NCBI RefSeq assembly: GCF_000189635.1
Contig: NW_002476454.1
Coordinates: 310,001-374,000, forward strand
Length of the DNA: 64,000 nt
From: Tetrahymena thermophila SB210
Taxonomy: Eukaryota; Ciliophora; Oligohymenophorea; Hymenostomatida; Tetrahymenidae
Reading direction: 5' to 3'
Shown here one piece after another: positions 3,150-48,064 of this stretch; the stretch's first letter is position 1, and each line of letters begins with the position of its first letter. A program made the translations under genes and the position numbers. Below the pieces are notes generated by a model, which saw only the letters and a program-made list of their open reading frames with translations, had not been told where the DNA came from and ran no database searches.

Positions 3150-4432
3150 TTTCAAATATTATTTTTTTTTATTATTTTTTTAGGTTTAAATTTCTATTAA
3201 AAAATCTGATAATTAATTATGATATTTAAAATAAGTATTTAAATATTTCATAACATTAATAATTTACTTAAGTTCTAAATAAAATAAATATTCTTGATAA
3301 TACTGTTAAATTATTATTTAGAAAATGAATTATAGATGTAAATATATTTGTTAAAATTTATTCTCAATAAAATAATAAAAAGAATAGAATAAATATTATA
3401 TTATGGGTACCCTCATTACTAATACTTCTAAGATTTACAAAAATGTATAAAATTGGAGAATTTTTTTAATATTTATTTGACATAATATCGAATATTTTAT
3501 TTTGTTTTTATTAATATTAGAAATCTATACTTTAGGTAAGTTGAGGATGAATCTTAAGTGAAATTGTAATAAATTGGCTGATAAGTCAATTTAAAATTTA
3601 TAAGTAAGTCAATTCCAAATTTTAATACTTAGGAAGCTAAGTATAATAAATCGATTTATTTAAAAATAAAAACTAAATTAGCATCTTAGTCATTATTTTA
3701 TATACTTAGAATATTTTTATTTTCCTTGACATCTTTTTCTTAAGGCTCTATTATTTTTGAAATGATTAATTTCGGCAAAATTTAAATGAAATAGTTTTTC
3801 TGAGTTGGTCTTCATAAATGAAAAATTACAGTTTATTATTTAGCAATATAAACTAAAAAAATGACATAATTATAGTATGAAATTTTATTTTTTTGGAAAT
3901 TCTGTTTGAATTTTACAAATATAATATTTGATATATTCCTTATCAAAACTATACATATAACAAATACAAAAAAATTTTTTGAATTGTAGTGTATAATAAA
4001 ATATGCAAAAGATATTTAAATTTATTTTAATATCTATCTAATAGCTAATATATTCTTAAAACGATTATTGAAATGGAAACTTTAAATAAATACCAATTTA
4101 TAAAATATTTAAATTAAAATACTTTAAATACTAAAGGAAGAAGGATTGAAACAAATTTGATTGAATACTTGATCTAATTTTGATAGATCCAATAAATGAA
4201 AAATGATCCATTTTTTATTAGTATAGGATTCTTATAAATTAATAAAATGAAAGAAATAAAATTTCAATTAAATCATTGAATGGGATGAATAAAGATAAAT
4301 AAGAAGATAAGAATTATCAAAGAAAATCAAATAAGATAAACAAAAGATAATTATTTAGATAAGCAAAACTTATAGCTTTGAAATTAAAAGATAAAAGATT
4401 AAGGCAATTTAATTATAAAGGTAAATATATAA
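3150..4432. other. Divergent intergenic region
   Basis: A 1.3-kb AT-rich spacer between two divergently transcribed genes. It presumably carries both promoters, but I recognise no specific motif or coding frame. Confidence 0.5.
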
Positions 4433-5071
4433 ATGGGAGGAGATCATCATCACGAAGACAGTCATCATAAGAGTAATGTCGACTAACATGAATTAAAGGC
4501 AGAAATGATCAAGGAATTATCTCATTATTACGATCATCATGATTTATCCTTGTTCGGTAAAGTTTAACATTTCGTCGAACACCTCTTAGAAGAAAAGCAC
4601 CATGCTAAGATTAACACTTCAAATTTCGATTAGAAAAAGCTCGAAAATTTTTCTGAAAGCAAGCAAATTTCAAGAACTGTTTTTGCTCTTAAGAAAATAA
4701 AAACATTCAACCATGATTTCTTTACTAGTGAAGAAGAAATGATTTTAGAGCCTCTTCCTTTGGGTATCTTAACTTACGGTTTAAAGTACGCTTTTGCAGG
4801 TGTTGATGCTGCACTTCTTACTTATTTCTGGAGAAATTGGAATTTTAATGTCCGTACCATTGGATTATTGGGTGGTTTAGTTGGTATCTAAATGGCTACC
4901 CTTCATATTCCTAATTTGGTTAACGAAGTAGTCATCTAAACTCCTAGAAGACGTGCTCTTGCTAAAAAATATATCTCAGCTTATGGTCCTTAATTTTTCC
5001 ATGATATTGTCAATCCTAAATATGATATTGAACATCTCAGACATCTTTAAAACAAGCTTAATCCCTATTGA
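4433..5071 (+). CDS. Small His-rich membrane protein, ciliate-specific
   Basis: Single exon of 212 aa, starting MGGDHHHEDSHHK and ending KLNPY before TGA. The first 60 residues are hydrophilic and rich in His and Glu. Two hydrophobic stretches follow, around residues 105-130 (LTYGLKYAFAGVDAALLTYFW) and 140-162 (IGLLGGLVGIQMATLHI). The last part is basic, with TPRRRALAKKY. Codon use is visibly biased toward C-ending codons (CAC, TTC, GTC, ATC), unlike most neighbours, which suggests high expression. I do not recognise the family. A lineage-specific subunit of a mitochondrial inner-membrane complex would fit the size, two membrane segments and strong expression, but that is inference only. Confidence 0.8.
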
Positions 5072-33161: not shown

Positions 33162-36100
33162 ATGCTATCTGCAAACTAATCTTTCTAAAGAGAGAATATA
33201 CTATCTTCATAAAGGATAGTAGATAATAATTAACCATAAAATTATAATAACTAATAATCTGGAGAAGCAAATAATAACAAAGCTTTGGAAATTTTAGATG
33301 GAAATCAAAGGAAACAATCTGATTTGATAGAATCTATTCCTATTGATCAAAATAGTAACCAATAAAAAATTCCTGTCTATAAAAAGAAAAAAACTTTAAT
33401 TATTGCTGGAATTTTAGTAGCTATATTGCTCGCAAGTGCAGGTATAGCAGGCTATGTTTTATATAATTAGCTATAAGAAAAATCAGACTCTCCTTAAATT
33501 CCTGTTACTTTCCCTAAATACAAAGAACAAATTATGGTAAGTTTGTCTTTTTTAAAATACATTTTATAATTATATTTTATTATAAAAAGGCCGGACAAGA
33601 ATAAAATTTATTGAAAATTATTCATGTTCCTAAAACCTTAAGAGTTTATGAGTACACTCTTTACAACCTTTAAAAGACATAGTAGAGTTAGGAATTAGAG
33701 AATGAATCTTTCTCTAAAACTACTCATAAACTTGGTTTAGTTTGCACTAATGTTACTGAGTCTTCGTTTGACATGATGCTTTATGTCATGGAATCTACTT
33801 TTATTGACAACACTACAAACAAAAACTCTACTCTTTCTGGATACCCTTCTCTCAAAGAAAACAGACCTCAAAGAAGATTTTTAAAAGGTGAGATAGAAAG
33901 TGTCACACAAGAAGAATCAAATATTGATAGTTCCATTTTTAGAGAATTTGGTAAAAAATTAAGTTAAATTCAAATTATTTTAAAAATTTTATCTAAAAAT
34001 TATTAGAACCACTTTCACAAAATGAAGTTGAAATCTTGAAAGCTAAAAATATTACTGAAGAGTAATATTACTTTAGTTATCTCCCAATTATCAGATTTAC
34101 TATGTCAAAAGTAAATTATTATTTTAGCTTTTTTAAAATTTATATTTAATTTAATTTAAAATTAATTAGAATGGCTTAATTAATTATGTGTAATAACCTA
34201 TTAACTTAAGATACGATTTACACTCTGTCTTTTTAAACATCTTAGAATAAATCTCTCCTGTGGTTTTGAAAGATTTTTATTCTATCGTTTAATAAGAACC
34301 AACTAAGAATGGTAACAAGAGAGTTTTGCAATTTGCAAAATAATAATATTCTTAGAGAATGCTAAATAACTAAGAATCTTAACCTAATTTGGAAGCTCAA
34401 GTAGCAACTGATGTAAATGGTAATTTACAAAAATCTTTTTCATAGACTAATAACAAAGAAAATTATGCTGTCGAGAACACTTCTTATACCTAAAATACAA
34501 CCATAATAAATGGAGCACTTAAGAGCAGCCAAGTTGAATCAATATTTTCAATGAGTGACAATTCCAATAATCAAGAACACTAAGCTCCCTTGATGAAGAA
34601 TATTGGAATGAATTCTAATTGCACAATTACTTTTATGTATTAAAATGATGAAATGGATTCTAATTTGTATGATTAATTAAAAGAAGATTAAGAAAATATG
34701 GCTGTTTTAGAACTAACTTGGAATGAAGCTATTGATATTTATAATAAAGTATTTAACTAGTCTTACTAAACTCATACTAAATCAAAACAAAATGAATAAA
34801 GTAAGTTTTAAATCAATTTAAATTATTTTAAAATTTTTAACTGTTATGAATAATTTAGAGAGAGCACTAGAGGGACAAGACGGAAAAGCTATGAAAACTG
34901 TATTAAAGCCTATATTTAGATAAAATTATGCTTCAATTGATTTTGGTGCTGATGTTAAATCAGAATGTGTGGAAGCAGCAATCATTTCAGGAGATGACAT
35001 TTGCACTGTTGGATTATACAGTTATTTCAATGGCAATAGTATGCTGGTAGCAGAGAAGTAAACTAAGATTAATATCTCATAAGTATTAAAGTATTATCAG
35101 TACATTTAGTATATTCTATCTGATAAAATTGTTACCGTCAAAGGAAAACTTTAAAATCATATTGAGACCATTAGTAATTAACTTAATGACATTATGACTA
35201 GAGTTGACATAATGCTAGATATTTAACAAAATCCAGTTTTAAAAGATATTTACAATGTTGTTTATAAGGACGAGTTAAAAATCATTAGTTAAATTAACTA
35301 GATCGAACTCTTTATTAATACAGTAAAACTCTTCAATTCAAAAATGTATTTTTTAGTTAATCATTCATTTAACTTTATATATAGGCTATTAAAAATGTTA
35401 ATAAAATCGCTGAAGATCCTTTGACTACATTGAAGAGTAGAATCTTGAACTTCTTACTCAAGAAATAAATTGATATCAGAGAGTAAGTTGAAAATATTGA
35501 AAAGTTCTATAAGGGGTAGTTTAAAAGAATTTTAGACTATATAATTTCTGTTAAAAATAATGGTGTTAGTGATAAAGTCTACTAAAAGCTTAAATCTGCT
35601 CTTGAACACTACGATGGAGTAATTATTGAACTAGTTGAAATTCCTGTAAAAAAGATGCTTGATGCAGTAGAAGCCTCCATTCTTGAATAGGCTGACTAAG
35701 CTTATAAGAATAGCATGCAGGTAGATTAATAAGTATCCGTTGATTCTAAATCTGCAGTAGCATAAAATAAAACAGATATTTCTGCTCCTCTAAAATTAAA
35801 GTAAATACTCACAACTGCCAATCTCACAGATACTCTTTCCACTATAGTCTCTAAATCAGTCAAACAAATTTTCAATTAGACTCAGGTTCATGATGCTTTG
35901 ATGAAGGGCTTAAAGCAATCTTTAGATTTGTAGAAGACAGATGTCATAAAGTAGCTTGACGGCCTTAAAAGAAACAATACAGTTGAAGCTAATCAAGAAG
36001 TTGATGAAATCATACAAGATATTGAAAGTGTGGTTGATTATTCAATAAATTTATATCATGATGTTAAGGAAGTCAAGGATGATATTGTTGAAATAGTTAA

Positions 36101-37546
36101 TGCTCTCAAGAAGCTTTAAGGATATGACACCAAAAAGCTTATACTAGATCTTACTTCTAACTTAATAGATTTCCCAGTAAATCTTGCTGTCTAAATCAAA
36201 GATTCTGCTGTTGTAACAGTACAAAAAATTAAACAAATCGGCTCTAATATGAAAACCAATCTATTATAATGGAAAGATGATTTGGTGAAAAACTCAACTT
36301 CTCTTGTAACTGAAGTCAAAACCTTATACAAAGATGTTATTGATTTTCTTTAAATTAAATAACTCCCATCATCTGATGATCCTAAATTCTACAGCGTAAA
36401 TTTTTTAATTAAAGTTTTAAAATATTTATTAAATTTAAAATTTAATAATAGAAACCTCTATTTGATGATATCTCTCAATTAACTAATGGAGTTAAAGATT
36501 TGATGAATGTTAAGTTCTAGAACTTAACTAATACTTATAATAGATTTGTAGAGATTCCTAACAAATTTAAAAAATTTATAAGTGATTTCTAAGCACTTGG
36601 AAAGAGAACTGTTGATTTCTACACTGAAATTAAAGTTGCAATCACTTCTGTGAAAATAGAAGGAGGTCTTTTGTGGTAATACATTTAAAATAAGACAGCA
36701 GAAGCTAAGTCTGCATCTTTTTCTTCTATCTAAAATGTTATCAACTCAGATTTAGTAGAGTAAGTATAAAGTTAAGCTATTTCTCCTTTGAGTGACTCTT
36801 CTTCTTCTATCATGAAAACAGATATGATTGCTTATTAGTAGTAAGTAGACTTTTAGTAAACTAATATGACATAAATTTACAAAGAAGTAATTAAAACTAT
36901 AATAGCTAATTCTGAATTCGATAAGAAGTCTATCACTTTTGAACCCTTTTCATTCCCTTTAGAATACGTATATTTCTATCCCACTCCTATTGGTGTAGCT
37001 ATCAAGCTTAAGTTATCTGCTTCGTGGAATGCAGGTTTTAACTTGAATTTATCTTTTAAAAATGCAACTTTAGATTTATCTGCAGGTGTTAATACTAAAG
37101 TAAGTGTTTTAGGTGAGGTTTCTGCTTCTATCGTTATTGCTGAAGTTGGTGGATATGCTGAAGGAACGTTCTTAGAAACAAGCGTTACCACAGGTATACA
37201 ATTATAAGTTTTGAATAGCTTTCATGGTAATTTTTATATCGATGGAAGCTTTAAGCCTTATAGCGTTAAGATAGGTATCTACTACATGTATTATTTCCCT
37301 TCAGAAATAACAAAGTGCGGAAGCATTCCATAACCTACCTAAGATGAAATTAAAGGATAAATTGAAGTGAAAAAAAATGTCTAAACAATTAATCAATCAA
37401 TTATTTCATCCATCTTTAATAAAATAAAAAAGGCCATTGATTGTTTAACTTAAATTAAATTGGCTCCATAAAAAAAAGATATATTCCCTCCAATTTAAGT
37501 CTAAGGACAAATATATTAAAAACGTCTATTTGAGGAATCATTCTGA
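33162..37546 (+). CDS. Large single-pass (type II) membrane protein of unknown family
   Basis: Seven exons: 33162-33536, 33590-33950, 34007-34110, 34170-34800, 34859-35322, 35385-36395 and 36452-37546, giving 1346 aa. A hydrophilic Gln/Asn-rich N-terminus of about 75 residues precedes KKKKTLIIAGILVAILL, a membrane segment at roughly 79-100 preceded by lysines, so most of the protein should lie outside the cytosol. The middle (about 560-1050) is long helical sequence with heptad-like spacing (LKKQIDIREQVENIEKF, VKEVKDDIVEIVNALKKL). The last 200 residues switch to beta-rich, Gly/Ser/Thr sequence (ASWNAGFNLNLSF, VSVLGEVSASIVIAEVGGYAEG). Two paired cysteines are near the end. I do not recognise any domain. 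Six introns of 53-62 nt fit perfectly in phase. Confidence 0.8.
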
Positions 37547-38023
37547 AAATAATTAATTTACATTAAGTTATATACATTATATATTATACTGTAATACATT
37601 AAACAAATTTATAATTTTAAAAAATTCTTTCATATATTTACTTACTTAATTTTTTTTCAACTTCTTTTAACAAAGATAATAAATTATGAAATAATTAATA
37701 TAATTTTCATATCTGTAAAATTTTATTTTAATTTTTGCATTTAGAATATACGCAAAGTATAGTAGGAAGTTAATTTCAAAACAAATAAAAAGAGAGGTAA
37801 ATTTTAAAATATTTACAGCGAAAAGTAAGTAGACACACAAAAATAAATAAAAAATTGAGGTTATGTTTAAAAGAGGAAATAAATTTTAAGAGTTAGATTA
37901 ATAACATTAAGACTTGCATAATATGAAAACAAATATAGTCTAATTAGTAATATCATGTTTAATAAAGAATAAATGTATGTTTAAGATTTAGAAAATAATT
38001 TTAATTGAAAATTATCAAAAATT
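37547..38023. other. Convergent intergenic region
   Basis: 477 bp between two convergent stops. Only AT-rich 3' flank sequence. Confidence 0.5.
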
Positions 38024-39853
38024 TCATTTCTTTTGACTAATAATAAGATCGATAGCTTCACTGCATCTTTCAATAAGTTCCTTTTCGTCTTTAACGATGT
38101 CGACGATATCAGCAACTTCGAAGACGTCAGTATCGATAAGCATACCAGTAATTTTGGGGACTTGTTGTTTGAATTCAGCGATTTTAGCTCTAGCTTGGTT
38201 TTCGTTTTAAACATCAGGGATATATTCCATGATTTTTCTATTCTTGTCAAGATCAAGTTCAGAAATTTTATAGTAAATGATTTGACCAAGAATACTTCTC
38301 TTTGATTCATCTTGAAGCTTATCGAAATCGCTGAATTAAGTTGAAATGGCATTAGTAATTTGTTCAATTTTATTCTTCTTTTCTTCTGCAGTAGCCTTTT
38401 CGAACTAAATAAAAATATTTTGAGGAGCAGCAGGTTTATTAGGAACAGCAATAAGAGTTTGAGGTTTAGGTTCAATTGGTTAAGGAGTGTTTTAAATCTT
38501 CTTATTATGTTACATAGAAGGAATGTTAATAAGCTTTGGTTATTAATTTTAGAAGGGGATTTATTGGGGCATGAACATAGGAATAGGGTATCCATAGGGG
38601 TGAATTGGGTTAGGAGCTTAAATGTCAGTTTAGAATTTGTTGCTACCCATAGTGCTATTTTGTTGGAATTCACCAATTTTTTTAGTCAACTTTTAGACAC
38701 TTTCTTGTTCATTCTTTTTGAGATAAAGAGTGACCTTGTGTCTGTTGTCGAAGATTTCATCAACAGAGTTTTTATTAGATTATTTAGCACAGAAAATCAT
38801 CAACTTTTGACCGTCAGCCTAAGAATCAAAGAAAACTGAAACATTGTTAGTTTTTAATTGATCGTCAGCATTGGCGGGTTTAGTTCTCTTTTTAATTTTA
38901 ATGCTCTCAGTAGGAACAGAAACACCAATAGCCTTTTGAATCCAATCAGCAATGTCTTATTCCTTAATGTCAATCTTGACACCTAAGAAGAAAAGATTTC
39001 TTTCACTGCTTTCATTAGACTTGAAGTTAATGGTAGGTCCCTTGTTTTAGGCTCCTGAGTAAGAGAAATTCTTTTAAACTTATTCCTTAACAGTCTTATA
39101 AATGTGTTCTTCTTGCTTATCATCATCGTATTGGAAATCAACCTTGACCCAGAAGTTCTTCTTGCTTTCATTGTATTCAGTGTAGAAATTGAAATGAAGA
39201 ACATTGAGTTCTTACTTAATTTTCTCGAAAATGGCGTTGATTGATTAGGTCTTGGCTTCCTTTTAATCAGCTGGGATTTCGTTTTCGAATAAACCAAGAA
39301 TGACGATGTTGTTGGCCTTATTTTTGTTGCTATCGTTGAACTTTTAGATATTGAAAGAGATGGTAGAGTTAGGAAGAGAAATCTTACCGTTTAACTCGTG
39401 TTCTTTCAAAATTTCATTGTAGGCTTCTTCAGTTTCGAATTAAACGTAACCATAACCTAAATTCTTGTTTTCATCGTTCTTCTTAAGCATAAGAGAGGTA
39501 ATTTCACCATACTTAGACATGAAATTGTGTAAAGTGTTAGTTTCGAGATCTTAAGGAACATTGTGAATGAATAAGTTATACTTTTTCTTTTGCTTAAGTT
39601 CATCCTTGTTTTGGTAATTAACAATATTAATTTCCTTGTTCAAAAGCTTATTGTGATTGAGGGATTGCTTAGCATTCTTTGCTTCTTCAGGAGATTAGAA
39701 TTCAACTAAGGCGCTTTTGTTCTTAGGGAAGTGCTTCAATGACTTGATAGTACCGAATTTCTTGAACTCCTTGAAAATAAGTTCCTTGGTGACACCTTCG
39801 TGGAGCAATTGGACTAAAAGTGTGCTCTAATTTTAAGTGGCGGTTTATAACAT
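38024..39853 (-). CDS. Poly(A)-binding protein, cytoplasmic type (four RRMs plus MLLE)
   Basis: Single exon, 609 aa. It binds mRNA poly(A) tails and links them to translation and decay factors. RRM1 is at about 10-80 (TLLVQLL, KSALVEF). RRM2 is at about 96-175 with the clear RNP motifs LFIHNVP and NLGYGYVQF. RRM3 starts at NNIVILGLF, and RRM4 at RNLFFLGVKI. A Pro/Gln linker (PNPIHPYGYPIPMFMPQ) leads to the C-terminal MLLE domain, whose signature KITGMLID sits at 567-574. The RRMs are divergent and RNP1 is weak in RRM1, RRM3 and RRM4. Codons are strongly biased (AAG, TTC, GTC, CTC), as in highly expressed genes. The leader is A-rich (see separate entry), and a truncated duplicate lies at 42189-42869. 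Confidence 0.93.
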
Positions 39854-39937
39854 TTTTTCTTTTTTGTCTTTTTTTGTTTTTTTTTTTTTTTTAAAGGTTT
39901 GTCCTTTTGTTTGTTTTTTGGTCTCTTTTTTTTTTTT
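39854..39937 (-). promoter_or_regulatory. A-rich 5' leader of the PABP mRNA
   Basis: Immediately upstream of the PABP ATG the mRNA-sense strand is almost all adenine, broken by single C or G residues, with an uninterrupted run of about 17 A at 39876-39892 and another of about 12 at 39925-39936. PABP mRNAs of animals and plants carry oligo(A) leaders to which PABP binds and represses its own translation. The position and composition here suggest the same autoregulation. Poly(A/T) tracts are common in this genome, so the function is inferred. Confidence 0.55.
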
Positions 39938-40977
39938 AAGAAAGTCTTGATTATTTATATATTATCTGCAAATCTTTTCGCAAGATTTAAAATAATAGAA
40001 ACTATCTTTCGCATTCAATAACTACTGTTTGAACAGAAATTTAGTTTTTAGTAAAATTGTATCATTTTTAGATTTTTTCCCCTTTAAAATCAACGTGGTA
40101 AATATAATTTTCCCTTAACATTTTAACATGAAAACATAATGTTAGCTTTCATAATAATATTTTTATTTGTCTCAAAATTTTGAACGTCCTTCTAATAATT
40201 TATTTTAGACTTTCATAATTGTATTTAATATTTTGTAAATCTAACCTTCTATTGATTTATCTATTTTATTATCTAAACAATTATTAGACACATTAGTAAT
40301 TTTTACATATAAATATATTTAAAATAGAAACTAAGTGAATATAACTAGTCTCAACTTTTCGTAATAATTAAAATATAATTAAATATAAAATTTATTTATT
40401 TTTTTTTATTTTATATTATTTGATATCTTGTGATCATTCGATATTCGATTGGATTAAATATCATATAATATTAATAAAAATCAGCAAATTAATTATTTTT
40501 TTAGAATTAATTAACTCCCAAAATATTAATTTTGAACATTATTCAACTACTATTTTGTTAATTAATTCTTAAATTCTTTAGATCAGATATTCATTTTCAG
40601 CCACTGCCAATGCTTATCTATTTATTTATCAATATCCAAATTAAATTCTTCATTTGAATGTATTTTAATAATCTTTATATTCTTGATTAAACAAATAATC
40701 CTGCAAAATCTAAAATCCCCATATTTTCGTTTTTTATATTCATTATGTCTATTATTATATATTCTTTAATATTTTGAAAAAATCTATATTAAATAAATAT
40801 CTAATTTAATAAAAGATTTAAAATGATATTTTTATATTTTAATAACACCATAAATCTCATTTATAACTCAAAAATTAAATTTAGGCTTTAAAATTAAAAA
40901 ATATTTAACAAATTACATAAAATATAAATTGTTGTTTCATTACAAAAAAAATATTTTTTTTATGGTATATTGGAATG
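39938..40977. repeat. Divergent promoter region, first copy of a tandem duplicate
   Basis: From the PABP leader to about 40460 this spacer aligns by eye with 42870-43415. Shared blocks include CCCTTAACATTTTAACATGA, GTTAGCTTTCATAATAATAT and GTGAATATAACTAGTCTC. The middle (40460-40900) has diverged, and similarity resumes at about 40930 against 43670. It is the ancestral head-to-head promoter of PABP and the coiled-coil gene. Confidence 0.75.
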
Positions 40978-42147
40978 CTAAAAAATAACTAAAAGTAAAA
41001 TAAAGATATATCTAATAAATAAATGAAATAGAATATTGTATTTTTTACAGATAATGTTGAAGAAAAAAAATAAATGGAATCATCTTAAATAGTCTAGTAA
41101 ATAATTCAAATAATAACTATATGACGTTATAAAAAAAAGTATTTTATTTTCTAATGGAGACACATTTTAAATGAAAAAGAAAAATAAATAAAAGATATTA
41201 TGAACCTGAAAATTAAAATAGTTTCGAATTAATTTTTACTCTATAACAAACATTATATTTACAAAATTACGATAGCGAAACTTAAGATAGTAGAAGTGTT
41301 ATTAAAATTATAGCTTATCCAAAAAAACAATTAAACAAATTTTAATCAGAATCAAATGAGATCTAATAGAATAATTTATTTACTCTTAAAACTTAAGAAA
41401 AAAATAGAGCCACTTCATCCTTAATGTCAAGAAAAATAATTAACTAGGTACCATAAATAAATGAAATCATCTTAAATAATATAGTAAATAATTATGATTT
41501 TAGTTAATATGGTAATTAGTAAATTAAAAAGAATAATTCAAATAATAACTAAATATATAAAAGTATTTTATTTTCTAATGGAGACACATTTTAAATGAAA
41601 AGAAAAATAATAATAAATATTATGAACCTGAGAATTAAAATAGTTTCAAATTAATTTTTACCCAATAACAAACATTATATTTACAAAATTTTTACTCTTA
41701 AAACTTAAGAAAAAAATAGAGCCACTTCATTTATTAATGTCAAGAAAGAATAATTAACTAGGAACCATAAATAAATTAAATCATCTTAAATAAAATAGTA
41801 AATAATTATGATTTTAGCTAATATGGTAATTAGTAAATTAAAAAGAATAATTCAAATAATAACTATATAAATATTTTATTTTTTAATGGAGACACATTTT
41901 AAATGAAAAGAAAAATAAATTAAAATATTATGAACCTGAAAAAAAATAGTTTCGAATTAATTTTTACCCAATAACAAACATTATATTTACAAAATTTACG
42001 ATAGCGAAACTTAAGATAGTAGAAGTGTTATTAAAATTATAGCTTAACCAAAAAAACAATTAAACAAATTTTAATCAGAATCAAATGAGATGCTAATAGA
42101 AAAATTATTTCTCTTAAAACTTAAGAAAAAAATAGAGCTACTTCATT
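40978..42147 (+). pseudogene. Decayed, internally triplicated copy of the coiled-coil gene 5' part
   Basis: The sequence repeats the start of the intact gene at 43727 (ATG CTA AAA AAT AAC TAA AAG...) and then jumps to a part of it corresponding to about 44490-44905. That part is present three times: about 40978-41435, 41436-41747 and 41748-42147. Each copy ends in a block like AAATAGAGCCACTTCAT followed by a scrap resembling PABP sequence (CTTAATGTCA). Frames are interrupted and in-frame TGA codons appear, so no product is expected beyond a short N-terminal peptide. The conserved start codon and following codons between this copy and the intact gene support the ATG chosen for the latter. Confidence 0.8.
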
Positions 42148-42188
42148 CCTTAATGTCACTCTTGGCAATTTAGAAGAAAACATTTCTT

Positions 42189-42869
42189 TCACTTTTTTTC
42201 ATTAGATTTGAAGATAATAGAAGGTCCCTTGTTTTAGGCTCCTGAATATGAGAAGTTCTTTTCAACTTTTTCCTTAATAGTCTTATAAATATGCTCTTCT
42301 TGCTTATCATCATCGTATTAGAAATCAAAAACGACCCAGAAATTCTTCTATTTATGGTTGTATTCAGTGTAGAATTTGAAATGAGGAACTTAAAGGTCTT
42401 TCTTAATTTGCTCGAAAATGATGTTGATTTATTAAGCCTTCTATTCCTTTTAATCAGCTGGGATTTCTTGTTCGAATAAATTAAGAACGAGTAATCTGTT
42501 TGCCTTTTTTCTGTTGCTATCGTTGAACTTTTAGACATTGATAGATATGTTAGAGTTTGGAATAGAAATCTTACCATTTAACTCCTGTTCTTTGAAAATT
42601 TTATTGTAGGCTTCTTCAGTTTTGAATTCAACGATACCATAACCTAAATTCTTGTTTTGTTCGGTCTTCTTAAGCTTAAGATTGATAATTTCACCATAAT
42701 TAGACATAAAATTGTGTAAAGCACTAGTTTCGAGGTCTTAAGGAACATTATGAATAAATAAGATATACTTTTTCTTTTGCTTAAGTTCATCCTCGTTTTA
42801 TTAATTAACATATTTAATTTCCTTATTCAAAAGAGTCCTTTTATCTTAAGTGGTGGTGGTTTATTACAT
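42189..42869 (-). CDS. Truncated PABP paralogue (RRM2-RRM3 only)
   Basis: An open frame of 226 codons from ATG at 42869 to TGA at 42189, clearly homologous to the PABP at 38024-39853. It opens MQQTTTTQDK, then skips most of RRM1 and joins at LLNKEI. It keeps RRM2 with LFIHNVP and NLGYGIVEF and all of RRM3, and ends after KGPSIIFKSNEKK where the parent continues into RRM4. A small length change next to that point puts a TGA in frame, and parent-like sequence continues a few dozen bases beyond before it meets the coiled-coil gene fragment. RRM1, RRM4 and MLLE are lost, yet no stop interrupts the 226 codons and many changes are conservative. It may be a young pseudogene or a short RNA-binding protein. 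Confidence 0.7.
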
Positions 42870-43726
42870 TTTTTTCTTTTTTGTCTTTTTTTGTTTTTTT
42901 TGTTTAAAGAAAGTATTGATTGTCTATATATCAAATCTATTAGCTAGAATATATTTTTTTTTAAATAATAGAAAGTATCTTTTTATTCAATAACTACTTC
43001 TTGAACAGTAATTGAGTTTTTATTTATATTCTTTGATTTAGATTTTTGCCCTTTAAATTCTACATGGTAATTACAATTTTCCCTTAACATTTTAACATGA
43101 AAACACAATGTTAGCTTTCATAATAATATTTCTATCTGTCTCAAAATTTTTAAAATACTTTTAATAATTTATTTTAGACTTTCATTTTTGTATTTAATAA
43201 TTTTTTCAACTTTTTATTGACTTATATATTTTATTATATTAACAATTCTTAAATAAATCAGCTATTTCACATAAAAATACATTTAACAAAGAAGCTAAGT
43301 GAATATAACTAGTCTCCATTTTTCCTAAAAATTAAAATATAATTAAATTTAAAATTTATTTAAAATTATTTGATAACTTACAATCATAAGATTGGATTAA
43401 ATATCATATGCCTTTTCAATTTTTGTCATTTATATAATAAGATATACTATTAATATTTTTTGGTTTTATTAAATTTAAGTTGATATTTTAATATTAAAAT
43501 CTAACTTAAATAATATAATAGATAGATACATACTGTTATTTTATCTTAAAATTTAAATTCTAAACTACTTACAAAACTTACGATCAAAAAATAGTAATTT
43601 AAATAAATTTTTTTTCTTCCTTTAAAATTACAACTAGAATCTGTAAAATAGCCAAAATATTAAATATTTTTATTGAGAGTCATTACAAAAAATACATTTT
43701 TTTATAGGTATATTGGACGGACACTT
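42870..43726. repeat. Divergent promoter region, second copy of the tandem duplicate
   Basis: Duplicate of 39854-40977. It includes a shortened T-rich (mRNA-sense A-rich) tract directly next to the truncated PABP start (42870-42905) and the blocks listed for the first copy. It now serves as promoter for the intact coiled-coil gene at 43727. Confidence 0.75.
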
Positions 43727-46700
43727 ATGCTAAAGAATAACTAAAAGTAAAATAAAGATATACCAAATAAATAAATTAAAAAGAATATTGCATTTTTTTC
43801 AGATAATATTGAAGAAAAAGCATAGTATGGAGTAGATTTTATTTAAGATTCTCAATAATAGCTTACAAATGTTAGATATTTAAGTGATTTGGATGATCCA
43901 CTTCCAACAAATATTGTTAATAGCTCTAATTATCAAAAGGGTAATATAAAAATCAAAAATAGGTAGAACTTAACGAATGATGTATAGCAATCGTAAAGAA
44001 AATATTCTTAAAACTTGATACAGTAGAAGGAAAATATCAAAAACAATTTATAAGACTAAAAGTTTAAGAATAGCTCTAAAAGATAGAGTTTATCACCATA
44101 ATAATAATTAGATAAAGACAATCGTAATATATATGAAATTGATCAAAAATAATTATATGAAGAGCTAGATGAGTGGAAAAATGAATTAGAGAATACAAAA
44201 AGAGTTCAAAATTATACTGAATAGATATTTGGCATCAAAGAATCAACTTAGAGCTTCTTAGGATAAGATAGATTTAATAATAGGCATTTAAGATAATTTA
44301 AATAAATTTCAGTTTAAAATTTAAATGGAAATTAAGCTAAAAATGAATATGAAAAAAATTAAAATGGCAATATAAACTAATAAACTTCTAGACAAACTAT
44401 GTCAATATCAAATGATATATAACTTTCATAAATAGATTCTACTAAGTTTAATGCTTCTAATATATAGCAAAGAATGAAATTGAACGTTTAAGAAAGCACA
44501 ATTAACTAGGAACCATAAATAAATGAAATCATCTTAAATAGTATAGTAAATAATTATGATTTTAGTTCATCTGGTAATTAGTAAATTCAAAAGAATAATT
44601 CAAATAGCACTGATGATAAATAAAAGCATTTACTTTCTAATGGAGCCTCGCCTTAAATGAAAAGAAAAATAAAAAAAAAATATTATGAACCTGAAAACGA
44701 AATTAGTTCCAATTAATTAGCTACCCAATAATAAACATCATCTTTACAAAATTATGATAGTGAAACTTAGGATAGTAGAAGTGTTATTAAAATTATAGCT
44801 TAGCCAAAAAAAACAATTAAACAGATTTAATCTGAAACAAATGAGATGCTTATAGAAAAATTATTTCTTTTAAAACTTAAGAAAAAAATAGAGCCACTTC
44901 ATTAAGAGCATATTGAAGATTTAAAACATAGATTTTTAGCAAAGTTTAAAGAATAAAGCTCACTTTAAGATAATATAAACGGATAAAAATAAAAATAATT
45001 TTTATCTAGATTACCAAGTCCTAGGGTGAACGAAGAAAGATAAAATTCAGGGTTTATTTCTGAAAGAAATACTAGACCTTAAAGCATAACAAGCTAGTTT
45101 TTTTAAAAACAATAAGAAATTGTCAAAGATGAAATAGAAAATTTTTAAAAGAAAACTTTAGATTCATTCAAATTTATATAATAAATTAAGAGAGCAAAAT
45201 CTGGTACTCCATAACTACTCAATTTAGTGAGTGGGAAAAAGGTAGGTGGAAATTAAAGTTAAACAAAAACAGAATAATATATCCAATAACTAGAAAAAGA
45301 ATTTACTTTAAATTAGGTTAAATAAAGTGCACAATTAACTAAAAATCTTGAAAATGCAAATGAGGGTACATTTTTAAACGAATAAGTTCAATAATAGCTT
45401 TTATTAAATTACAAATAAATGGTTAGCAATATCAAAGAAAAAAAAGATATTTTAGAATCTAGCCGCTTAGAAACATTTAAATTACAGTCAATAATAAATT
45501 AAATATAAGAAGAAAAAAAAGATTTGCAGTAAAAAATGCAAGTTGAACTTGAAAAAGCAGCACTCTAAAAATATTAAGTTTTCAGCAGACAAAATATTAC
45601 TTTAGAAAAAGAGCAAGAATCTAACTAAGAAAAATAACTCAGATAGGGAAGAAACAAAGAGCAGAAAAATTAAAAATCATTTGCGAATTTGAACAGTTAA
45701 ATTTAAGAGTAACAAAAAAACATTTAAATTGATTTCGATAGAAGACAAAGATCCTTAAGTAACAAAATAAGGCAACTTTAATAACTACTTAAAGAAAATT
45801 AACTTAATTCAAACAGCCTCCAGGAAGAGCTTAGTAATCTAAAGAATTCAAAACTAACAAAAAAAAAGTAGTTAAAAAATTACTATCTTTCTCTTCTTTA
45901 ATAGCATAAGTCATATGAAAGTCCATAAATATCAATCATTAAGCTCATAGAAGTATATTTTTTAAATTAGAATTTTAAATTTTTTATAAAAATATATCAA
46001 TTCAGTATATGTAGGAAATCGATGAAGAAATTGACGAAAAAATGTTACCTAATTACTTTGATTAAGACAATATCGAATTTGTAAAAAAACTCTAGAGACT
46101 CAGTATATAGCTAGAAAAACTTCAAGAAGAATTTTAAATAGTTTCAAAAAGCACAAAAAATTCTCTCCACTCATAAATTTAGTTGAATAAAATTTAGTAA
46201 AGTCAGTAAGAGTTTGTTAGTTCTCCTATTTTAAAATCTTCACTTAATTTAACATAACCAAAAAAACCGTTCTTAGACTAATAAAGCTAAATAGAAATCA
46301 AAATGAATAATTAAATTATAAAAAATTTAGCTTAAGGTAGCTCTCCTGCACTCTCTTAATCTTTAATATCTTAAAATTTGGTTTCTAATAGAAATTGGGA
46401 AGATGAAGATAAAAAATTACTTAAAATGATGATAGGAAAAGAAGTAAATCATAAACAAGAAATTAAAAAGAAACTCTCTAAAATATCTAAAAATACTCTT
46501 CAAACAAAGAATTAAAATTTAGAATATTTTTAGCTTTATTCACAAAATTATATTGTCTAAGAGGAAGATGATTAGGAAAAAGATAATTCTAGCCTCCTTT
46601 TTTAGGATAGAGTAAAGGAAAATGCTCTGAAAGAGAGAGAACCTAGGTATTCGAGTGCTCTTAAATTTGCAAATAGATAAAAAGAAGAAGATGAATACTA

Positions 46701-47454
46701 TTTTTTTCTTTACAATCTAAAAAGAGGTTCTTTGTCAATTTTAGAATATAATAAAAAATTATCAGAGTAAATTTAGCACATATAAACTAATATTGATAGC
46801 TTAAAAGAATAAGAGTTAGAAAGGCTTATTAAAAAGTATAATAATATAACTGCTGAAGATAGATTACTCAATGTGAAGAAAATATTTATACTAATGTATG
46901 GATTTTAAGAAGGAAATGATTGGTATTCTAAATTTATTAAAAAAAGAAAAGAAATGTTAATAAAATCTGTGGCTAGCAAAACATTTAACTTTTAAGAATA
47001 TATCTACAGTAAAAACAATTAACAAAAAATAGATTTTATGATAAACTAAAAAGATTAGCTTTCCAAATAAGAAAAATACTAAATTCAATAAGATTTTTAA
47101 AAAAATGAAAATGAATCTAAAAAAGAAACAGAAAAAGTAAAATCTTACAATCCATAGCAAATTCATTAATAAAAAGAGTTAATTTTAAATAGATTTAAAG
47201 TTTTATAAGAAACTCCTAATTCAATAGGAGGTTCTAATACTACAAGACATTAATAATTATAAGATCCATTTTAATTATTTATTAAAAAAACTAATTTAGA
47301 GTAAATTTCTAATCTGAAAGCAAATCCTAGAGAAACAAAGAATTAGAAACAAAGAAAAAGTGTACACTTTTAAAATTATAATCTTGTATAAGAATAAAAT
47401 GAAATAAACTAACTAAGTAATACTACTTTAAATTTCTCCTCAAAAAATTTATGA
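43727..47454 (+). CDS. Large Gln/Lys/Glu-rich coiled-coil protein
   Basis: Two exons, 43727-45952 and 46006-47454, with a 53-nt intron, giving 1224 aa. The start MLKNNQKQNKDIPNKQIKKN is supported because the decayed duplicate at 40978 keeps the same ATG and frame. The protein is hydrophilic throughout. Residues up to about 380 are Asn/Ser/Gln-rich. Long coiled coils follow (EKKDILESSRLETFKLQ..., EEKKDLQQKMQVELEKAAL), then a second charged region (KKLLKMMIGKEVNHKQEIKKKLSK). No enzyme motif, zinc finger or membrane segment is seen. Structural or scaffold roles (cytoskeleton, basal body) are possible but unsupported. It is one half of the duplicated divergent pair described in this region. Confidence 0.8.
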
Positions 47455-48064
47455 TTATCCTTACAAAATAAAAATTAATTTATTTCTGCTGATATCTAAT
47501 TTAAAGATAATATTTTTGAATAAACCTTTATTAAAAAAATTTAAAAAAACACTATTAATTACTAATTTAAAATTAAATTATATTAATTTAATGTATTTAT
47601 CAAAAAATTGCATGTTTAAATATTTTATCAATTATAATCAATTCAGAAAATTTATTTTTTTAGAAAAATATTATTAAAATTAATTTTAAATATTTATGAA
47701 TTTAATTAAAAATATGATAAGTACATAAAATATTTGAATCAAATTTTTGAAATATTTAAATTGAATTAATTATTCTTTAAAAAATTTTGTAGTTAATTTT
47801 AAAATGAATGATCAAGAATACATAATCAAGCATTTTAATTTAAATAATTAAAAAATAAAAATGATATGTGATTATTAGAACAAATAAAATATTGAATTTT
47901 TTTAAAATTAATTCTTATGATAAATATTTTATTTAATAATCTTAAATTCAATATTAGTAGGTAGACAAGTATTTGAAAATTGCTTGCTTAAGGTATGTTA
48001 TAAACTTGCAAAATAAATATAAAAAAATAATTTTATAAAATAAAAAAATTCAATCAATGTTTGC
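47455..48064. other. Convergent intergenic region
   Basis: 610 bp of AT-rich 3' flanks with no feature recognised. Confidence 0.5.

Follow-up and report, generated by a model that had tools for sequence, protein, structure and literature searches.

In Drosophila yakuba, partial tandem duplications are reported to alter expression through reshuffled regulatory elements and chimeras, more than through whole-gene dose (PMC5460883). A second point of comparison is the germline mating-type (mat) array of Tetrahymena thermophila, whose only complete genes are the two at its ends; the main text of the paper that describes it gave no hit for the word "duplication" (PMC3608545). Here we describe a locus of Tetrahymena thermophila SB210 in which a PABP-like gene and a second gene, divergently oriented, enclose a cut copy of each. 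It lies in a window of 64,000 nucleotides (contig NW_002476454.1, C97 in our analysis, positions 310001–374000; coordinates below are those of the window unless a contig is named) of an assembly of 101,022,631 bases in 445 contigs. A telomerase reverse transcriptase piece of this assembly shows long stretches of identity with PDB chain 6d6v_A, which comes from T. thermophila. We propose, with a probability of roughly 0.77, that the locus arose through one tandem duplication whose breakpoints fell inside PABP and the second gene of a head-to-head pair. No description of the locus was found among the titles and abstract openings listed from the literature, which is weak evidence of absence.

Results

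Parts of a divergent gene pair form a direct tandem repeat

All genes were read with ciliate code 6, in which TGA is the sole stop. The left member of the locus is an intact PABP-like gene on the minus strand (38024..39853; 609 codons plus TGA). Its open reading frame (ORF) and Pfam and PDB searches give RRM1, RRM2, a further RRM-like region, and a C-terminal MLLE: Pfam reports RRM_1 in two stretches and MLLE (1.6e-10), and the three best PDB matches are all PABPs. The right member, the second gene (plus strand, 43727..47454, about 1221 codons), which an initial annotation had called a coiled-coil gene, comprises exon 1 (43727–45952), a putative intron placed by eye (45953–46014, GT..AG), and exon 2 (46015–47454); two pieces of it were scanned against Pfam, neither with a match at E ≤ 0.05, and its first 743 codons had no PDB match at E ≤ 1.

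Self-BLAST of the region resolved two units in direct orientation, at present 3189 bases (unit 1) and 2759 bases (unit 2) long. From left to right they hold the intact PABP, the broken second gene, the truncated PABP, and the intact second gene. The PABP part common to both units (38959–39646, minus strand) aligns with 42145–42833 at 85.6% identity over 689 columns with 1 gap, and the intergenic part (39898–40466) aligns with 42870–43409 at 78.2% over 579 columns with 49 gap characters. For the second gene, the start (40937–41067) matches 43680–43819 at 84.3% and the interior (41742–42147) matches 44490–44903, the plus-strand part kept as fragments in unit 1, at 86.8%, with additional copies inside 41100–42158. 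In a comparison of the whole 64-kb window with itself, with the low-complexity filter on and each pair given once, 10 of 10 matches listed at E ≤ 1e-15 fall within 38959–44903. The blocks are collinear in the order A-B-B-C. This bears out what an initial annotation, made from the sequence alone, had proposed: the gene order, recognisable repeats, and one head-to-head unit duplicated in tandem. The diagonal that it expected between 39854–40460 and 42870–43415 is the intergenic alignment given above.

Both truncated genes end at one and the same junction

Base-by-base comparison showed that positions 42140–42147 follow the second gene, ending at 44903, and that positions 42145–42158 follow PABP, starting at 38959. 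The two matches overlap by 3 bp, ATT, at 42145..42147 (44901–44903 in the second gene, 38959–38961 in PABP). Thus a single junction forms the 3′ end of both the broken second gene and the truncated PABP, with 38959 as the left and 44903 as the right breakpoint of the duplicated segment, and both truncations therefore arose in one event. As in a tandem duplication, the copies are adjacent and direct, one new junction joins the right end to the left end, and the sequence outside is single in the searches described next. No second copy of sequence outside the breakpoints was found in the window self-comparison or in genome-wide searches, for which the queries were PABP and codons 1–743 of the second gene. 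PABP has four matches in the genome (the gene itself, the truncated copy in unit 2, a 34% match on contig C184, and a match on contig C295), of which only the gene itself continues past residue 291; of the six matches to codons 1–743 of the second gene, none apart from that gene continues past residue 393. Directly shown are the block order, the single junction and, among the matches listed, outer flanks that occur only once. If an order A-B-C became A-B-B-C with breakpoints inside both genes, reciprocal loss is unnecessary, and in its simplest version this reading has no complete duplicate of either gene at any time.

The initial annotation had instead proposed that two complete units each lost a different member by gradual, independent decay. 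Two units and two damaged genes are indeed present, but both truncations meet at one 3-bp junction, whereas independent losses would not be expected to stop at the same base pair, and the PABP fragment retains its open frame. We therefore regard reciprocal decay as very improbable. "Decay" remains an apt word for the second-gene fragment; it is doubtful for the PABP fragment, which is open and shows no gap over 633 aligned bases.

Alternatively, both genes could have been duplicated whole, after which a single deletion took the 3′ ends of the first second-gene copy and of the second PABP copy. This would leave the same junction and the same map, but it takes two events, not one, and no further PABP beyond residue 291 (four matches) or second-gene codons 394–743 (six matches) turned up. 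The latter is a weak argument because the deletion itself would have removed those parts. We consider this route unlikely. Several points nevertheless weigh against a single-step duplication. The map left by a whole-gene duplication with one middle deletion is identical, and structure alone cannot distinguish the two; the genome search scores its best candidates only, which limits the statement that there is no second copy; the single-pair ancestor is assumed; and two intergenic stretches (40467–40936 and 43410–43679) do not match, so that at least one further insertion or replacement is required.

The second-gene copy is reduced to a start and three interior fragments

The copy of the second gene in unit 1 had been annotated as a broken 5′ copy. 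It is broken, but of the 5′ part only the first 93 coding bases remain (40975..41067, plus strand; 91.4% identical to 43727–43819, no gaps), followed by three interior pieces; an equivalent of about 43820–44516 is missing. These pieces are tandem fragments of 44490–44903 and fill 41068..42147 on the plus strand: fragment A (41068–41428, 361 bases), fragment B (41429–41742, 314 bases), and fragment C (41743–42147, 405 bases). Fragments A and B terminate in about 11 bases that resemble the PABP side of the junction, exactly in A and with two differences in B, and were therefore copied after the junction had formed. By BLAST the fragments are 89–93% alike among themselves and 84–87% identical to the intact gene, with gap differences against the intact gene that the fragments have in common; hence decay began before amplification. 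We used the BLAST values because the MAFFT alignment misplaces the 3′ end of fragment B and so gives lower percentages (A-B 80.4, A-C 88.6, B-C 86.9; A, B, and C to the intact gene 78.0, 77.3, and 85.4). TGA is present in all three forward frames of 40960–42160.

Most of the intergenic DNA is duplicated, with one copy next to each intact gene

The intergenic region of unit 1 (39854..40974) has 1121 bases between start codons and that of unit 2 (42870..43726) has 857. Bidirectional promoters serve head-to-head genes whose starts lie about 1 kb apart or less, and the ancestral upstream DNA may have held either one shared bidirectional promoter, as the initial annotation suggested, or two back-to-back promoters within about 1 kb; both are candidates. 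The best conserved 80-column block of the alignment (40096..40175) is identical in 75 of 80 columns compared to 78.2% overall, with a column permutation P of 0.0058 that gap clustering may flatter, as columns were moved singly. Within the conserved block, 40128–40181 and 43097–43150 can each be read by eye as 18 ATG-led codons with three differences, all synonymous under code 6. The reading could be a possible upstream exon, a short ORF, or chance; with only three changes, the case for an exon cannot be made.

The similarity does not span the whole region. The unit 1 stretch 40467..40936 and the unit 2 stretch 43410..43679 have no detectable homology to one another, with 36 of 150 AT-matched null segments scoring as high or higher, which points to a further insertion or replacement, or to a different piece lost from each unit. 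Elsewhere in the genome, outside the locus, the intergenic DNA has only short matches (47–132 bases, E 2e-10 or weaker). At the locus, most of the intergenic DNA is present twice, one copy adjoining each intact gene. The initial annotation had the promoter region copied, and this holds for most of the region, with the exception of the two unmatched middle stretches. As a working effect, the two intact genes might be controlled independently while the number of complete copies of either stays unchanged, a proposition that we rate at even odds.

The truncated PABP copy is an open frame predicted to encode two RRM-like domains

The truncated PABP copy in unit 2 (copy 2; minus strand, 42189..42869) is an open frame of 226 codons. 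It retains the start codon; a net loss of 171 bases, in frame, takes out most of RRM1, and the frame is closed by a TGA after a 1-base shift relative to PABP, shortly before the junction. Pfam reports RRM_1 (1.2e-11) and no MLLE match in copy 2; the genome has two MLLE matches, neither of them in copy 2. The MLLE match other than that of the intact gene, C122:1150116-1150331, presumably belongs to the standard PABP. An AlphaFold2 model, built on an alignment of two sequences, has a mean predicted local distance difference test score (pLDDT) of 71.9 and a predicted template modeling score (pTM) of 0.46, with residues 1–31 below 50. It shows two strand-helix-strand-strand-helix-strand domains, with elements spanning residues 35–114 and 124–222, so that the stop lies 4 residues past the last predicted strand. 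Foldseek matched the model to tandem-RRM proteins over about 190–200 columns (best E 5.7e-07), at whole-chain TM-scores of about 0.3 that we take to reflect uncertain placement of the two domains. From the model, copy 2 probably encodes RRM2 and a third RRM-like domain, the latter unreported by Pfam.

The genome search with PABP also returned an N-terminal half of PABP on contig C295 (positions 4176–5006 of the stretch examined there, minus strand), open over 276 codons. It contains RRM1, RRM2, and the third region, lacks the C-terminal half, and stops within a few residues of the stop of copy 2; its protein alignment with PABP has three gaps before its end, each of one whole codon. Its 5′ leader is 74.5% identical to that of PABP over 110 columns and 73.2% to that of copy 2 over 97 columns, with 0 of 100 shuffles as good in each case. 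The leader is nearer in length to unit 1 than to unit 2, so that unit 2 has probably lost a short leader piece. DNA upstream of the leader matched neither intergenic region (53 of 100 and 81 of 100 shuffles reached the scores), and the 3′ flank is not supported as a continuation of PABP (44 of 100 shuffles reached the score). To see whether the C295 copy could be a daughter of copy 2, its 3′ flank was compared with the repeats of unit 1, and a single shuffle out of 100 scored as high. Anchored at the junction and set against nulls of AT-matched genomic segments, the flank scored 22.5 with the intact second gene (null mean 20.2, standard deviation 10.7, n = 60) and 36.5 with fragment C (mean 31.5, standard deviation 14.5); with the stretch ending with fragment B it scored 53.5 (mean 31.4, standard deviation 13.2, maximum 52), which is marginal. 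The first two scores do not exceed their nulls, and the C295 copy may have branched off either before or after the tandem duplication. Judged from the ORF list, the neighbours of the C295 copy look different. At the positions that we take to be RNP1 of RRM2, copy 2 (residues 76–82) reads GYGIVEF and the C295 copy GDGFIQF compared to GYGYVQF in PABP, each short copy having one aromatic residue fewer.

Measures of selection on copy 2 are mixed

Copy 2 could be a working short gene, with two RRMs, RRM1 mostly lost, and no MLLE, that is kept by selection; this would be compatible with a single duplication having formed the locus. In its favor, the 226-codon frame is open, RRM1 was lost in frame, two RRM-like folds are predicted with the stop just behind the last strand, and the longer C295 half is likewise open, with single-codon gaps. 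Gaps also point this way: there are 0 gap events per 88 mismatches in the PABP fragment compared to 11 per 77 in the intergenic part and 9 per 41 in fragment C (Fisher's exact test, 3.5e-4 and 6.5e-5, respectively). These values become 0.012 and 0.012 when gaps at A or T runs of at least 4 are removed. Counting own-branch changes only (an estimated 57, being 49 placed and about half of 15 unresolved) weakens the contrast to 0.013 against half of the intergenic events and 0.0007 against fragment C, and to 0.07 and 0.035 without runs. The comparison is weakened further because the PABP part has a lower AT content (67.7% compared to 80.8% in the intergenic part and 76.6% in fragment C) and fewer long runs (1.5% compared to 9.3% and 8.5%), so that fewer gaps are expected anyway.

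Pairwise omega between PABP and copy 2 is 0.57 (bootstrap 0.34–0.97). Data for the separate branches speak against a working gene. In a comparison of the three copies (206 of 211 codons kept, 5 with a gap in any copy omitted), branch omega is 0.36 for PABP, 1.18 for copy 2, and 0.59 for C295. None of the tests was significant (free compared to one omega, 1.4 log-likelihood units; copy 2 fixed at 1, 0.07; copy 2 equal to PABP, 1.0), so that the value for copy 2 differs neither from 1 nor clearly from that of PABP. PABP and copy 2 differ at 51 amino acids in the 206 codons, and the C295 copy has the PABP residue at 29 of these sites, that of copy 2 at 7, and a different one at 15. Base changes at the first, second, and third codon positions number 20/12/17 on the copy 2 branch and 7/4/13 on the PABP branch, with 6/2/7 not placed on either; those of copy 2 are spread as if without constraint. 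An open frame is also expected by chance: with 40–60 simulated neutral changes, the probability of no TGA is 0.64–0.73, which is high because TGA is the sole stop. Copy 2 is thus relaxed, young, or possibly functional by these measures, and we hold a selected short gene to be a tentative reading, somewhat less probable than its opposite.

Convergent transcription of the inner fragments is an unlikely source of small RNAs

Rightward transcription from unit 1 would enter the PABP copy in antisense, and leftward transcription from unit 2 would enter the second-gene pieces in antisense. Convergent transcription might then yield double-stranded RNA, together with small RNAs that target either PABP or the second gene. 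Precedents from ciliates are small interfering RNA silencing in trans that is set off by truncated transgenes, reported for Paramecium (PMC4937312), and, in Tetrahymena, small RNAs from pseudogenes with a reported preference for Twi2 (review, PMC7792047). Exact 23-mers of the intact genes occur in both fragments, but they number 18 of 700 in the PABP copy and 66 of 1151 in the second-gene fragment, most 23-mers of both being unmatched. By analogy, silencing by the inner fragments is conceivable and distinctly unlikely. A search for RNA families in 36000–48000 gave none at E ≤ 1, and ARAGORN, run with the bacterial code, found 0 tRNAs in the window.

Discussion

We favor a single tandem duplication as the origin of the locus. 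The ancestor is assumed to have been a single head-to-head pair. The duplication would have been a single event, arising through microhomology-mediated repair or else template switching, with the 3-bp overlap joining 44903 to 38959. The outer genes would have remained complete, each flanked by a duplicate of the greater part of the intergenic DNA, and the middle would have received two gene fragments, each with a start and without a 3′ end, facing each other. Later, the second-gene fragment had its frames broken, lost pieces, and was amplified to three, and an in-frame loss left the PABP fragment as a reading frame with two RRMs and no MLLE. A bolder version, in which the one event made a mat-like array, uncoupled the genes, and created an RRM2-RRM3 protein without MLLE that competes with PABP for RNA, and which would also explain the origin of the mating-type array, seems to us improbable.

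The type of mutation, partial tandem duplication, is already known, and as a route to separate upstream regions it is fairly ordinary. The locus is of interest as a clean natural case: by copying the space between divergent genes, not whole genes, it provides each of them with a separate upstream region, and the junction is legible down to single bases. The open two-RRM frame adds a candidate new gene. Intact PABP resembles cytoplasmic PABP (RRMs and MLLE) in having RRM1, RRM2, and MLLE. In contrast, copy 2 has lost most of RRM1, and everything beyond its third RRM-like domain, MLLE included, is missing; the C295 copy lacks the C-terminal half.

The geometry raises the question of a programmed cassette, rearranged between germline and soma like the mating-type locus. 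The somatic genome of Tetrahymena thermophila is about 100 Mb, and the assembly of about 101 Mb fits it, so that the array would be what remains after any rearrangement. As in the germline mat array, head-to-head pairs stand in direct tandem, with complete genes at the array ends only and the inner members truncated; unlike the mat array, whose segments keep their frames with one exception, this locus has two units rather than six, other genes, and inner frames that are partly broken, those of the second-gene fragment among them (PMC3608545). Judged by the features compared here, this is no mat-type cassette, and we give programmed rearrangement next to no weight. Its mat-array-like geometry nonetheless suggests a simple one-step model for the start of such arrays. 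As with the partial and chimeric duplicates of Drosophila yakuba, a tandem duplication has captured and reshuffled gene parts and regulatory DNA (PMC5460883); unlike those cases, the breakpoints here hit two divergent genes, and the fragments are joined tail to tail with both parents whole.

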